Source: Pyrococcus sp. NA2
GTDB taxonomy: Archaea > Methanobacteriota_B > Thermococci > Thermococcales > Thermococcaceae
Assembly: GCF_000211475.1 (NCBI RefSeq)
Contig: NC_015474.1
Location: 558,001 to 622,000 of the forward strand
Direction: 5' to 3'
Length of the DNA stretch: 64,000 bases
This document shows positions 25,725-62,793 of the stretch, one piece after another (position 1 is the stretch's first letter; every line of letters begins with the position of its first letter). The notes under the pieces were generated by a model. The model saw only the letters and a list, made by a program, of their open reading frames with translations, was not told the DNA's origin and searched no databases. The position numbers and the translations under genes were made by a program.

Positions 25725-26399
25725 TTTAAATACTTCGACCTCCTAGATTTTCCGATGTTTGAAAAGATATCTAAGCAAAGCGAGTTTGAACCATTTGGGG
25801 AGCTCTCGAAGATAATTGGAGGACTTAAGCAGGGAGACTTGGCTGGAGTTATAACAACCGACCAGCTAACTTACGCTTATCTCCTTCATTTAGCCCTTTC
25901 AAGTTTCCCTGGAAATTCTTATTACCTTGATGTATCCTCCAAAATCTCCTCTAAGATCTTGGAGAGTATAGGGGGAAATCCAGACAAGGTGTTTTTTGCA
26001 AGGGTCTACTCAATTAAAGATGTAATTTCCGCCCTAAATTATGTTGAGGGGAATTCTCTTTTTGCCCTGGGCTCCATAAACATAGTGGGCATCGACTCTT
26101 CTAGTTTATTACAACTTAAGAAACTCATTGGAGACAAGGCTCTGTGGGGAATATTCTTTATTGAGGAACAATCCCTAAACGAGTTGGATCTGATTAGTGA
26201 GGCTAGAAGGCTTCTTTTTCTTCCTGAACTCTTTGAACAGTTGATAGTTGCCAGGACGACTTATTACAGAGGTAGATACAAGTTAACGGTTACAGTTCTC
26301 AGAACGTATCCTGAAAGGTTAAGCTCCCTGGGAGATCATGAGCTCATAGTAGACGAGGAAATAAAGAAAATTTTATCCCAAAGTACAGAAGGAGGATGA
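25701..26399 (+). CDS. Unknown protein, possibly degenerate RecA/KaiC-like
   Basis: I do not recognise this 232-residue protein. A stretch GDLAGVITTDQLTYAYLLHLAL followed by SYYLDVSSKI resembles the layout of RadA/KaiC-like proteins, but there is no Walker A, so ATP binding is unlikely. No membrane segments or cysteine motifs are seen. The start is ATG at 25701 (GTG at 25698 possible), without a clear ribosome site; a TATA-like element was not obvious. Its 3' end overlaps the convergent ecfT gene by about 56 bases. Likely restricted to Thermococcales. Confidence 0.6.
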   Translation: MSARLAETFKYFDLLDFPMFEKISKQSEFEPFGELSKIIGGLKQGDLAGVITTDQLTYAYLLHLALSSFPGNSYYLDVSSKISSKILESIGGNPDKVFFARVYSIKDVISALNYVEGNSLFALGSINIVGIDSSSLLQLKKLIGDKALWGIFFIEEQSLNELDLISEARRLLFLPELFEQLIVARTTYYRGRYKLTVTVLRTYPERLSSLGDHELIVDEEIKKILSQSTEGG

Positions 26400-27093
26400 G
26401 CATTAGTATTCCAATTGCAACGTAGTCCTCTTTTTTCATTTTTAAGTCAACAAGATATGTTCTCTTTTTTGATGCTCCAAATCCTCTACTTTCCATTGCG
26501 ATTGCCAACTCGTGAGCTGTCCTTATTGAGAGAACGAGGAGTGGAATTATTATCGCAACCATCTTCCTACTTCTCTCGAGGAAGTTTCCCTTCTCAAGCT
26601 CCAACCCCCTGCTTTTCTGTGCGTCCATTATGTTCTGAGCGAGAGAATAAAGTGTTGGGATATATCTTAGGGCTATTAGCACCGTTAGGCCTATCTCATA
26701 TGGTAAACCAAGCTTTGTGAATCCCCTTATTAAGTCCCTCTGCTTTGTCGTCATCATCAATCCGAATGCAATCAGCGTTATTCCCATTATCCTAAAGGTG
26801 TATGCTATTCCAATTAGGATGCCCCTACTTAGAGGATGAACTATTATCGGCCAGCTAACGAATGTTATTATGAATATGGGAATTAGGGGTTTCAACGCTT
26901 TGAGTTGGAGTCTAAAATCTATCTTTCCAAGTGTTTTAAGGCCCAATAGTGTCAGGAAAAATATGAGTGGGGAATACAGGGGATCCCTTGTCATAACTCC
27001 TAGGATCCCAAGGATAACAGTTCCAATTATCTTGACCCTTGGATCAAGGGAATGCAAGATTGATTTTCTTTCAACATATATGGAATACATCAT
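26344..27093 (-). CDS. ecfT: ECF transporter transmembrane component EcfT
   Basis: Scaffold membrane subunit of an energy-coupling-factor vitamin/metal importer. It has five or six membrane segments and the two EcfT coupling signatures, AQKSRGLEL and AMESRGFG, that contact the ATPases. Length is 249 residues. The ATG overlaps the end of ecfA by four bases, so it is translated with it. No S component is adjacent. BioY at 60899 is a possible partner, since group II ECF systems share one module among several S components. Confidence 0.9.
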   Translation of the reverse strand: MMYSIYVERKSILHSLDPRVKIIGTVILGILGVMTRDPLYSPLIFFLTLLGLKTLGKIDFRLQLKALKPLIPIFIITFVSWPIIVHPLSRGILIGIAYTFRIMGITLIAFGLMMTTKQRDLIRGFTKLGLPYEIGLTVLIALRYIPTLYSLAQNIMDAQKSRGLELEKGNFLERSRKMVAIIIPLLVLSIRTAHELAIAMESRGFGASKKRTYLVDLKMKKEDYVAIGILMLILLLYFGIKFSLFPRLL

Positions 27094-27872
27094 CGAACTA
27101 TCACCTTGATGATCTCTTCTATGCTTCTCACGAATCCAATTCCAACGTTCTTTGCTATTGTTATAAGTTCGGGCTCCTTCAGATAATATTCCTTAAGATT
27201 AAGCTCAAAGAAGTCTTCAACTGGTCCATAGAACTTTACTTCTCCATTGAAAATTAGGAGAACCTTATCCGCAAGTTCCAGAACTAGATCCATATCGTGG
27301 GTAACGAGGATTATTGAACTACCTTCTCTCCTTAGCTTTCTAATGGTCTCGATCAAATTTTTAGTACTTCTCTCATCAAGCCCAGTGTTCGGCTCATCAA
27401 GGACTAGATACCTTGGCTTCATAGCCAAAATACAGGCTATGGCCAATCTCTGCTTTTCTCCCCCACTCAACTCAAATGGATTTCTCTCCTCGAATCCCTC
27501 TAAGCCAACAGCCTTTAGGGCCCATTCTACCCTCTTCTTAATTTCTTCCTCACTAAGGCCAAGATTCCTTGGCCCAAATGCAACTTCCTTAAAAACGTTT
27601 TCCTCAAAGAACATTGCCTCTGGATTCTGAAATACGTAGCCAACTTTTCTGCTTAGCTCAGCAACGCTAACGTCTCTCGTATTGACTCCGTCAATTATTA
27701 CATCTCCCTTCTTGGGCTTAATTAAGCCGTTCATCATTTTAACTAGGGTCGTCTTTCCACTACCATTTGGTCCCACAACCGCTAATATCCCTTCATCGAA
27801 TTCGAAGTTTATCGACTTGAGTACAATCTTACCTTCCTCATACCAGAACCACACATCTCTGAACTCTATCAT
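27090..27872 (-). CDS. ecfA: ECF transporter ATP-binding protein EcfA
   Basis: ABC ATPase driving the ECF module with EcfT. Walker A is GPNGSGKTT, the Q-loop is FQNPE, the signature is LSGGEKQR and Walker B is LVLDEPN followed by the H-loop THDMD. About 260 residues from ATG 27872. A longer frame to 27941 has no support, because the extra residues are unlike the family. Only one ATPase gene is present, so it may work as a homodimer. The order ecfA-ecfT with a four-base overlap indicates an operon. Confidence 0.92.
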   Translation of the reverse strand: MIEFRDVWFWYEEGKIVLKSINFEFDEGILAVVGPNGSGKTTLVKMMNGLIKPKKGDVIIDGVNTRDVSVAELSRKVGYVFQNPEAMFFEENVFKEVAFGPRNLGLSEEEIKKRVEWALKAVGLEGFEERNPFELSGGEKQRLAIACILAMKPRYLVLDEPNTGLDERSTKNLIETIRKLRREGSSIILVTHDMDLVLELADKVLLIFNGEVKFYGPVEDFFELNLKEYYLKEPELITIAKNVGIGFVRSIEEIIKVIVR

Positions 27873-28037
27873 CAATAACACTGTTAGTTTCGACGTTAAA
27901 AACTTGCCTCGTAATTTGGAATTGGAACTATGGTGCCTCAAAGAGAAAAGTTTTTAATTGGAAAGAGTCCTTCCAAAATTAGCGGGGCTCCGATCCATGA
28001 GAAGTGCCTGTTCTAAAAGTGGAAAAGGGGAAGAAAT

Positions 28038-51067: not shown

Positions 51068-51322
51068 ATGAGCATATTTATCCTCAAGAACAATATTACA
51101 AATGGTGGGTCAATGTGGGACAACAGGCCCACGGAACTAACAGGGCTCTCAACAGAGATTCGGCAAATTACTGGCAGAAGAAACGATATCATCTTTACTT
51201 GTATAAAGGCTTGGTCGAGGAAGTTCGCAAAAGAGGCTATAACTTGTCGCAGGTGGTAAACATGATTCTTGCAGCAATTGTTTCACAAGAAGACGCTCTG
51301 ACAAGACTACAAAAACAGATTG
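51068..51322 (+). pseudogene. N-terminal integrase remnant, int(N), frameshifted at its start
   Basis: From 51071 one frame reads HIYPQEQYYKWWVNVGQQ, then RYHLYLYKGLVEEVRKRGYN and LSQVVNMILAAIVS, and runs without a stop straight into the 3' end of tRNA-Gly. This is the arrangement left by SSV-type archaeal integrases, whose attP lies in the 5' part of the gene. No start codon is in frame near the beginning. ATG at 51068, preceded by AGGTGATC, is one base out of frame; adding one G (ATGGAG instead of ATGAG) restores it. I infer a one-base deletion. A GTG at 51115 is the only in-frame alternative. The int(C) half is not in the window. Confidence 0.6.
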
Positions 51323-51400
51323 TGGTGCGGTGGCCGGGATTTGAACCCGGGTCGCCGGCTCGGAAGGCCGGCGTCCTAGACCAGGCTAGACTACCACCGC
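51323..51400 (-). tRNA. tRNA-Gly (anticodon TCC)
   Basis: Read on the - strand it begins GCGGTGGTAGTCTAGCC and folds as a cloverleaf: acceptor GCGGTGG/CCACCGC, anticodon stem GCCGG/CCGGC around CTTCCGA (anticodon TCC), T loop GGTTCAAATCC. The 3' CCA is encoded (51323-51325). It served as attachment site for the element whose int(N) remnant abuts its 3' end. Confidence 0.95.
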
Positions 51401-51406
51401 ACAAGC

Positions 51407-51483
51407 TGGTGGGGCGGGGGGGATTTGAACCCCCGACACCCGGATCTTCAGTCCGGTGCTCTCCCAGGCTGAGCTACCGCCCC
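51407..51483 (-). tRNA. tRNA-Phe (anticodon GAA)
   Basis: Read on the - strand it begins GGGGCGGTAGCTCAGCC, with acceptor GGGGCGG/CCGCCCC, anticodon loop CTGAAGA (GAA) and GGTTCAAATCC T loop. CCA is encoded (51407-51409). It is six bases upstream of tRNA-Gly, and both are likely one transcript. tRNA-Phe is the substrate of the Trm5a/wyosine enzyme encoded at 7879-8883. Confidence 0.95.
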
Positions 51484-51540
51484 ACCCTCGAAATTTATGG
51501 TTAAAGAAGGTTTTTATAAACCTTGCGGTCAACTAAGTAC
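51484..51540. promoter_or_regulatory. Shared promoter between tRNA-Phe and the biotin ligase gene
   Basis: A single near-palindromic TATA region (GGTTTTTATAAACC, 51509-51522) lies about 25 bases from both the tRNA-Phe 5' end (- strand) and the ATG at 51541 (+ strand). It can serve either direction, making the ligase message leaderless. Confidence 0.55.
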
Positions 51541-52248
51541 ATGCTTGGACTTGGAACTTCCATCGTGGGAAAACAGGTCATCTATTTAAGGGAGGTAACT
51601 TCAACGAACGAGTACGCCCTTCTTAACAATTTCCCTGAGGGAACGGTTATAGTTGCCGATAGGCAAATTAAGGGGAGGGGAAGGCTTGGAAGGAAATGGG
51701 AATCACCTGAAGGAGGTCTGTGGATGAGCGTTGTTCTAAAGCCGAGGGTCTCAGCAAATGATTTGCCTAAACTCGTATTCCTTGGAGCACTCTCAGTTAT
51801 CGATGTTTTGAAAGAGTTTGCGATTGAAGGCAGGATAAAGTGGCCCAATGATGTTCTCGTGAACTACAGGAAGATATCGGGAATACTTGTGGAGGGAAGG
51901 GGAGACAATTTCGTTCTTGGCATAGGTCTAAACGTTAACAATGAAGTTCCCGAAGGTGCAACATCGATCAAGGCCGAACTGGGGACGGAGGTCTCTCTTA
52001 CGGACATCTTTAAGAAGCTCGTTCTGTCCCTCGACGAGCTATACTCCCTCTTTTTGAAGTCTCCATCAAGGATATTAGAGCTGGCGAGGGAGAACATGAT
52101 ACTTGGAGTTAGGGTTAGGGTCGGGAATATAGAGGGGATTGCTGAAGATGTTGATGACTTCGGGGCATTAATCGTCAGGCTTGACACTGGAGAAACTAGG
52201 AGGGTGGTGCACGGAGATGTTTCACTTAGGTTCCTCGAGCATATCTAA
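51541..52248 (+). CDS. bpl: Biotin protein ligase, monofunctional
   Basis: Attaches biotin to the carboxylase/decarboxylase carrier protein through biotinyl-AMP. From ATG 51541 it is 235 residues, the size of the P. horikoshii enzyme, with the same start. The biotin loop [15 protein letters not shown] is at about residues 45-59, KWPND at 100-104 and the catalytic lysine at 111 (YRKISG). There is no helix-turn-helix, so it is not a repressor. A second, degraded BirA homologue lies at 61454. The message is probably leaderless (TATA about 25 bases upstream). Confidence 0.96.
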
Positions 52249-60898: not shown

Positions 60899-61405
60899 CT
60901 AAGCTCTTGATGCTGAAACGCCCACGGCCTGAGTCCTTTCAACGATCTTCACCGCTATCACAATTTTTATCAAGTCTGGAACTATGAAGGGGGCAACGCC
61001 GGCCATAAATGCCTTCTTAAACCCTATGAATCTTGAAAGCCAAGCCCAGCCCAGGAGATATATGAGGGCAAGTCCAAGTATTGAAGTCAAGTACCTCTTC
61101 TTCCCCTTTCCAATGCCCGCTATCATCGCGGCCAATGGAAAGGCCATTATGTAGCCTCCCGTCGGCCCGAGGATATGGGCAATCCCTCCTGAGAAACCCG
61201 CAAATACTGGAAGGCCAAGGGCTCCCAGGAAATCGTAAAGGGCTATGCTCAGGAATCCAAGCTTTGGTCCTAGGATGAGACCGGCCAATATCACGAAGAG
61301 AACTTGAAGGGTCAACGGGACTGGCCCTATGCTCACGGTGATCTGGGCACCTATTGATGTCAATGCAACGAATAGGCCAACTAGAGATATCTCCTTGGCC
61401 CTCAT
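60899..61405 (-). CDS. bioY: Biotin ECF transporter S component BioY
   Basis: Substrate-capture membrane protein for biotin, 168 residues, six segments. Hallmarks are the N-terminal MRAKEISLVGLFVALT, VPLTLQVLFVILAG, the GLPVFAGFSGGIAHILGPTGGY motif region (split) and the C-terminal VPDLIKI. It needs an EcfT/EcfA module, which could be the one at 26344-27872. It is divergent from the BirA-like gene, and a BirA-type operator lies between them. Confidence 0.93.
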   Translation of the reverse strand: MRAKEISLVGLFVALTSIGAQITVSIGPVPLTLQVLFVILAGLILGPKLGFLSIALYDFLGALGLPVFAGFSGGIAHILGPTGGYIMAFPLAAMIAGIGKGKKRYLTSILGLALIYLLGWAWLSRFIGFKKAFMAGVAPFIVPDLIKIVIAVKIVERTQAVGVSASRA

Positions 61406-61417
61406 GATACTTCCTTT

Positions 61418-61447
61418 GGTAAACCTTTTATATTGTTTAGGTTAACG
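61418..61447. promoter_or_regulatory. BirA-type biotin operator over the bioY/birA promoters
   Basis: Half-sites GGTAAACC (61418-61425) and GGTTAACG (61440-61447) are inverted and spaced by exactly 14 bases, matching the bacterial BirA consensus with N14-15 between half-sites. The spacer contains CTTTTATATT, a TATA-like element, so binding would block transcription. Confidence 0.75.
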
Positions 61448-61453
61448 AAAATC

Positions 61454-62140
61454 ATGCGGTGCATAAGACCTGAGGTTAAGAGGAGGATTGTTGAGGTTTT
61501 AAAGAGCGGGGAGAGGGTTTCCGGAGAAACCCTTGCAAAGCTACTTGGAATTTCAAGGGTGAGCGTTTGGAAGCATGTGAAAACTCTAATATCCCTCGGT
61601 TATGAGATCGAAGCCGGTGGCTCTGGATATAGGCTCATCAAGGTTCCAGATGAACCTTTTCCCTGGGAGCTTGGGGTCAATTACCTTTACTGCCCTAAGG
61701 TTAAATCTACGATGGACGTTGCATGGAGGTACTTTGGCATCTACGATGGAGTCATTGCTCGAGAACAGACGAGAGGAAGAGGGAAGACGTCATCTTGGCT
61801 CTCCCTCCCTGGAGGCCTTTACCTCTCCACGTGCATAACCGGAGTAACATCGATATCATCCATACTCGAGAGCGTTTCCAGGGAGTTGGCTAGAACCCTC
61901 TCAAAGGAGTACATGCTTGAGATTGAGGCCAAAGAGGGAAAGCTGTTTCTTGAAGGTAAAAAGGTTGGAGGTTTGCTAATCGAAGTTAGGGGGAATGATA
62001 GGGCCGTTCTTGGGATAGGAATAAACGTTAGGAACCCAATCCCGGAAGGTTCTGCCAGGCTCGAAGGGGCAAGTCTGAGGGAGGTTGCTGGCATAGTTAT
62101 CAGAGTTCTCCAACGATACATTCAACGGGAACGTGCTTAA
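61454..62140 (+). CDS. birA: BirA-like biotin repressor with degraded ligase site
   Basis: 228 residues from ATG 61454: an N-terminal winged helix ([19 protein letters not shown], residues 27-45) and a BirA/LplA-like domain. The ligase domain has lost key pieces: where active enzymes read GRGR-x-x-R-x-W it has GRGKTSSWL, and KWPND is replaced by AKEGK (about 159-163). The lysine and glycines of KKVGGLL and VLGIGINV remain. I infer a biotin or biotinyl-AMP sensor that represses bioY and itself, while the enzyme at 51541 does the ligation. The frame from 61433 would start inside the operator and is unlikely. Confidence 0.88.
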
Positions 62141-62633
62141 CTATTCTAACTTTCTTTCCAGCCTTTAAGATCTTCAATCCCTTTTTCCTCAGGCACTCCG
62201 CATCTATAAGGAGAACGACGACATTGCTTCCATGCCTCCTTCCTGTGTTGTACGCGTCTTCGTAGTTCAGGCTTAGGTGAACGAACTGTCTCTTCATCGG
62301 CTTTATCCCCTCTTTCATTATTCCTTCTAAGTTTTCCCTGATTGTTCCATGGTAGAGAATCTTGCTCTCAAGGTCTTCTTCATGCTTTAGGTTCACTGGA
62401 TAGCTGTGTCCGTATCTGGCCCTAATTTTATTTCCCCTGATCTCGTACCTTTCCTTTTCGTCCCTCTCCACGATATCCCTGATGAACTCCTCAGTAACCC
62501 AGGGATAGACCTTCCTAACCGCGTTAACAAGCTCATCTATCTCCACGAATCCCTCTTCATCTGGGCTTAATCCAAAGCTCCAGGGATCGTGCCTTAAGAT
62601 GTAGGCCATTAACTTGCTGACCTTGAACCTCAC
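62100..62633 (-). CDS. kptA: RNA 2'-phosphotransferase KptA/Tpt1
   Basis: Transfers the 2'-phosphate of RNA to NAD+, forming ADP-ribose 1'',2''-cyclic phosphate. The start region [16 protein letters not shown], the [11 protein letters not shown] stretch, YHGT and the FVHLS motif hold the conserved Arg-His-Arg-Arg active-site residues. Length is 177 residues from GTG 62633, close to the family. A TTG at 62675 would add 14 residues; I prefer 62633 because homologues begin with this sequence. Its last bases overlap the convergent birA gene. In archaea its natural substrate is not clear. Confidence 0.88.
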
Positions 62634-62793
62634 GTCCGAAGTTCTAACCTTCCAAGTTAAATCCGTTTCGTCCAAACAGGAAACTATGCTCCCAAAGAGC
62701 CAGGTAATTGTTCTGGTGAAATCTAAGCAGAATTCTGCCCTTAGAACCAGAGATTGAATTCAATTGAAAAGAAGGAGAGAAAAAAATTGTGTT
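62634..62793. other. Gap between kptA and the alkaline phosphatase gene
   Basis: The upstream region of kptA and the terminator of the phosphatase gene. On the - strand a run of seven T's (about 62781-62787) after the phosphatase stop fits archaeal termination. No further genes are seen. Confidence 0.4.

Follow-up and report, generated by a model that had tools for sequence, protein, structure and literature searches.

A probably ligase-dead, conserved BirA variant is the predicted repressor of biotin uptake in Pyrococcus sp. NA2 and its relatives

The 64,000-nucleotide stretch of the Pyrococcus sp. NA2 genome analysed here (the window) carries, in divergent orientation, bioY and a gene that codes for a 228-amino acid protein with a BirA-like architecture, and an inverted repeat of the BirA operator type lies between the two (Table 1). 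An initial annotation had already placed bioY next to this regulator, and this was confirmed; it had also given the regulator gene an extent of 61418-62140, and on the basis of the orthologue alignment the start was corrected to the ATG at 61454. A TTG start at 61433 was discarded, since it falls inside the operator spacer and the orthologues align at the ATG. At its 3′ end the regulator gene overlaps tail to tail, by 41 bp (62100-62140), a KptA/Tpt1 RNA 2′-phosphotransferase gene (62100-62675, minus strand). The intact ligase that had been proposed at 51541 is indeed present, and a search of the whole genome with the regulator protein retrieved only the regulator and this ligase. The genome also encodes a biotin carrier domain. 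Just upstream of the ligase gene, a 129-amino acid open reading frame (51115-51504) lies opposite a tRNA-Gly/tRNA-Phe pair (51323-51483, minus strand), and is almost certainly a spurious tRNA-antisense frame.

Table 1. Features of the window discussed in the text
Feature	Position	Strand	Evidence or remark
ecfT/bioN-like energising subunit	26344..27093	-	PF02361, E 5.6e-34; away from bioY in this genome
ecfA/bioM-like ATPase	27090..27941	-	similarity to L089 protein judged by eye
Intact group I biotin protein ligase	51541..52248	+	PRK08330.1 biotin ligase equivalog, 337.6 bits
bioY, biotin-specific S component of ECF transporter	60899..61405	-	PF02632, E 6e-41, 140 bits
Operator TGGTAAACC-N14-GGTTAACGA	61417..61448	.	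between divergent bioY and regulator
TATA-like TTTTATAT in operator spacer	61426..61433	.	ATATAAAA on opposite strand; predicted shared promoter core
Putative ligase-dead BirA-type regulator	61454..62140	+	228 aa, start ATG 61454
Winged-helix DNA-binding domain, ~residues 8-62	61475..61639	+	PF08279, E 9e-13; alignment
Pseudo-ligase (BPL-fold) domain, ~residues 74-218	61673..62107	+	no BPL_C domain after it
Biotin-binding loop, residues 105-115	61766..61798	+	44 orthologues all keep Q105, G108 and W115; arginine positions eroded in this protein
AKEGK replacing IKWPND adenylation/transfer motif	61928..61942	+	alignment
K170 (E. coli K183, P. horikoshii K111)	61961..61963	+	invariant in 44/44 orthologues

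The regulator was described from the outset as a protein that keeps the winged helix and the general ligase fold, and the domain searches agree with this. The HTH_11 match (PF08279) spans residues 10-60, PRK11886 matches the N-terminal part, and in the alignment the recognition region resembles E. coli SRAAINKHIQTL. The biotin/lipoate ligase match (PF03099) is weak, with an E value of 4.5e-05 and 23.8 bits, compared with 82.9 bits plus a BPL_C domain for the 51541 ligase. No match to BPL_C (PF02237) was detected in the regulator, and the proteins stop short of the C-terminal domain in all 44 aligned orthologues. An AlphaFold2 model built with 44 homologues has a pLDDT of 93.8, and when it was used in Foldseek the S. 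aureus and E. coli-type BirA proteins ranked first. The regulator nevertheless scored 54.8 bits against a cut-off of 362 in the BirA membership test and 53.1 against 70 for TIGR00122, and BirA membership failed on three tested features. Neither is it a group I biotin protein ligase: it has an HTH, and lacks both KWPND and BPL_C. A NiaR-type regulator (HTH_11 plus 3H) was also considered and rejected, because the second domain has the BPL fold rather than 3H and the NiaR match is confined to the HTH. A pseudogene is ruled out, since the reading frame is open in the orthologues of 46 genomes and their pocket residues do not vary. Action in the manner of the BirA repressor is a predicted role, and one that is well supported by the sequence comparisons.

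To define the state of the ligase site, residue conservation was counted over 44 aligned orthologues of the 46, and the proteins of E. coli, B. subtilis and P. horikoshii served as references. The replacement of KWPND by AKEGK was confirmed. The motif is absent in 44/44 orthologues, its Trp (W173) is deleted in every one of them, and its Lys and Asp (D176) are gone in nearly all. The claim that the ligase site has been lost therefore holds for the KWPND segment and the C-terminal domain, but not for the biotin-binding site, which is largely kept. The equivalents of E. coli S89, T90, Q112, G115, W123, K183, G186, E190, G204, G206 and N208, several of which we take to line the biotin pocket, are invariant in 44/44. 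The K183/K111 catalytic lysine (K170 here) sits outside KWPND, in a K-x-x-G segment whose lysine is given an essential catalytic role in a review of the M. tuberculosis enzyme (PMC3048393). The equivalent of E. coli Asn91, which neighbours the pocket, is Met in all 44 orthologues. It had further been stated that the arginines of the biotin loop are gone. In the window protein R121 is indeed lost and R118 has become K, but GRG is kept, and since most orthologues retain the whole GRGRxGR loop, the erosion is a local feature of Pyrococcus. P. horikoshii ligase mutants R48A, R51A, K111A and D104A have, according to the titles of the structure entries, been crystallised with biotinyl-AMP or with ATP and biotin; therefore, such residue losses need not abolish ligand binding. 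Apparently, to judge from these alignments, the biotin pocket was kept and the ligase chemistry removed.

The operator reads TGGTAAACC-TTTTATATTGTTTA-GGTTAACGA. The window and the examined loci were scanned with a weight matrix derived from 88 half-sites of the same family, this site included. The operator scored 23.8. No other independent site in the window exceeded 14.3, and 20 simulated windows of 64 kb reached at most 15.8; the strong BirA-type operator claimed at this position stands well clear of all other sites of its kind in the window. The pattern GTWAACYN{12,15}GGTTWACG matches once in the 1.86-Mb genome, at this operator; with this strict pattern no wider regulon was found in the genome. 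The spacing of exactly 14 bp that had been emphasised is true here but not universal, since 13 bp was found in 31, 14 bp in 12 and 15 bp in 1 of 44 sites. The matrix scan revealed no operator upstream of ecfA/ecfT at 26-28 kb, and none turned up beside the intact BirA genes (group II; L111-L123) of the same class. In two close relatives a second operator-like site (score 18.9; L131 1679-1709, L132 1366-1396) occupies the promoter region of a 220-amino acid protein of unknown function, beside a methyltransferase-like gene and ~5 kb from the ligase gene. In T. kodakarensis the median TATA-to-transcription start distance is 23 bp (PMC4247193); with this distance from the TATA-like element in the spacer, transcription of both bioY and the regulator is predicted to begin at the first codon or close to it. 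Occupation of the operator by a protein would block both promoters, if the TATA element is where it is predicted to be.

Conservation of the operator was then followed across the Thermococcaceae. An orthologue of the regulator is present in 46 of 94 genomes from six genera (the G046 copy is truncated where its contig stops). Each of the 46 also carries bioY, and the regulator occurs in none of the ten genomes without bioY (Fisher 0.001). Every one of the 46 regulator-bearing genomes has the operator upstream of bioY (score 12.7-29.3), and it was detected in only 2/38 that lack the regulator (Fisher 1e-21); in both exceptions a contig ends just upstream. Thirteen out of 13 phylogenetically independent pairs on the bioY tree that differ in the regulator differ likewise in the operator (p = 0.00024). 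Upstream of bioY in L082 and L085, where the regulator is absent, decayed operators with one half-site, CTGTTAATC, intact were observed. Most non-Pyrococcus genomes, Thermococcus included, have the order bioY < operator > regulator-ecfA, a homologue of the ATPase at 27090..27941 lying directly 3′ of the regulator. In 30 regulator-less genomes bioY and ecfA are directly divergent, with a gap of 48-177 bp as opposed to ~750-870 bp when the regulator is present. At L089 and L090 the regulator is displaced and the operator is still at bioY; at L090 it lies between bioY and bioB, also facing bioB, and the regulator and ecfA follow bioB. In T. gammatolerans, bioY (tg1804), bioM (tg1802) and bioN (tg1801) have been published as a cluster, and the accessible part of that paper does not mention the intervening gene (PMC3407056). 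A contig scan yielded nothing but an unrelated bacterial ligase. In an incomplete Thermococcaceae genome (G085, contig C59), a third, full-length and bacterial-looking BirA (L048, from 1378) is probably contamination.

The regulator had been regarded as derived from a ligase. This stands at the family level, but the trees do not fix the closest ligase ancestor. The regulator forms one clade (support 100/99), which in the catalytic-domain tree groups with the group I ligases (98/94); a grouping with class-level BirA is also compatible with the data (p-AU 0.42), and the full-length tree does not decide the matter. These trees do not single out the resident ligase as the origin. Archaea of the same class (L111-L122) have an intact BirA with HTH and KWPND.

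Among the Thermococcaceae genomes searched, bioB scored above the curated cut-off in only one (G093; L090 1268-2242, beside bioY). A 2018 survey lists bioB in all Thermococcales (PMC6138646), which we take to reflect looser matching. BioY is probably the main source of biotin, because bioB passes the cut-off in a single genome, and its control would be a sensible target. We consider it probable that the regulator is a monofunctional, biotin-sensing repressor of the BirA fold that controls biotin uptake and itself. We infer a dimer, whose winged helices would bind TNGTTAACC-N13/14-GGTTAACNA and whose ligase-fold domains would retain the biotin pocket and the ligand-contacting lysine. When biotin is plentiful, the liganded dimer would cover the TATA-like element common to bioY and the regulator and shut off both genes; when biotin is scarce, it would leave the DNA and uptake would rise. 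With KWPND and the C-terminal domain gone, the regulator should neither make nor transfer biotinyl-AMP, and biotinylation of the carrier protein would be performed by the separate 51541 ligase. The suggested split of sensing and ligation between two proteins gains comparative support from the conserved, apparently ligase-dead protein cognate to the bioY operator and from the separate group I ligase.

The ligand would more likely be free biotin than biotinyl-AMP. We give about even chances to the fuller proposal that free biotin, not the adenylate, is the corepressor, that sensing in Thermococcaceae is uncoupled from ligation demand, and that the module and its operator disappeared (or were acquired) together on about a dozen occasions. 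The counterpoint is that the repressors of E. coli and B. subtilis have biotinyl-AMP as corepressor (PMC4016012), which they make for themselves and which the regulator should not make. The adenylate could be handed over by the separate ligase, or the regulator could form mixed dimers with it, so that biotin demand would be read as in BirA. That the loop arginines are kept in most orthologues, and that P. horikoshii ligase carrying one loop or lysine mutation holds biotinyl-AMP in crystals, would suit such a signal. We judge it rather unlikely, however, as every orthologue has lost KWPND and the C-terminal domain, both of which help to form the adenylation site, and the loop arginines are eroded in Pyrococcus, the window protein included.

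The invariant N91-to-M change could together with the eroded Pyrococcus loop mean an altered ligand or a weak affinity. This change and the signature peculiar to the family would suit a bioY regulator that responds to a related compound other than biotin, or an activator. Such a regulator is nonetheless quite improbable: the associations are throughout with biotin genes (always bioY, mostly ecfA, and bioB in L090), and the operator brackets the TATA-like element, which is a repressing position. Retention of the pocket and of the K183 equivalent would also accord with a bifunctional BirA, residual or altered, whose ligase activity persists in certain conditions; Lombard and Moreira took HTH-bearing homologues as BirA with ligase function and assumed them bifunctional (PMC3199775). 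Against this, to which we assign the smallest likelihood, KWPND is absent with its Trp deleted and BPL_C is missing in 44/44 orthologues, and the same genome encodes a complete group I ligase. Very probably, as far as sequence comparison can tell, a monofunctional repressor is what the locus encodes: a ligase-dead BirA variant, real and conserved, that represses biotin uptake.

Textbook BirA is enzyme and repressor in one and takes the intermediate of its own reaction as the signal; in this case two proteins of one archaeal cell would share these jobs between them. A repressor that keeps the pocket and drops the chemistry offers a natural way to tell the requirements of BirA for sensing from those for ligation, and ~13 independent joint changes of gene and operator make a clean comparative case of a regulator and its site evolving as a unit. 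The family and the archaeal operator are partly known already. Rodionov et al. 2002 (cited in PMC4016012) announce a BirA signal in Archaea in the title of their paper. A second BirA-like homologue in P. abyssi and P. furiosus has been reported (PMC3199775), which very probably belongs to the same family as the regulator; it is described as an HTH-bearing BirA that branches at a distance from the species' own BPL, and the accessible part of that report does not mention the loss of the ligase site. We found no description of the ligase-dead state, its conservation or its repeated joint loss with the operator, part of which Rodionov et al. may describe.

The regulator shares with BirA of E. coli, B. 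subtilis and S. aureus the HTH joined to a ligase fold, the inverted GTTAAC-type operator and the control of biotin genes, including bioY. It differs in lacking KWPND and the C-terminal domain, in its length (228 versus ~320 amino acids), in the separate ligase, and in a spacer of 13-15 bp; the E. coli BirA operator has a spacer of ~16 bp. Its closest solved catalytic domain by sequence is that of the group I BPL (P. horikoshii structure; 51541 in the window), with the same pocket residues, but the group I enzyme has KWPND and the C-terminal domain and no HTH, and the regulator is the reverse. BioR (GntR), BioQ (TetR) and BioL (MocR, which senses an intermediate) are likewise proteins distinct from the ligase that repress biotin genes, but their folds are unrelated. 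Lactococcus lactis has an HTH-bearing and an HTH-less protein, BirA1 and BirA2, the former of which binds the bioY1 operator (PMC4861984). Unlike the regulator and ligase described here, both are active ligases, and hence sensing and ligation are not separated in L. lactis.
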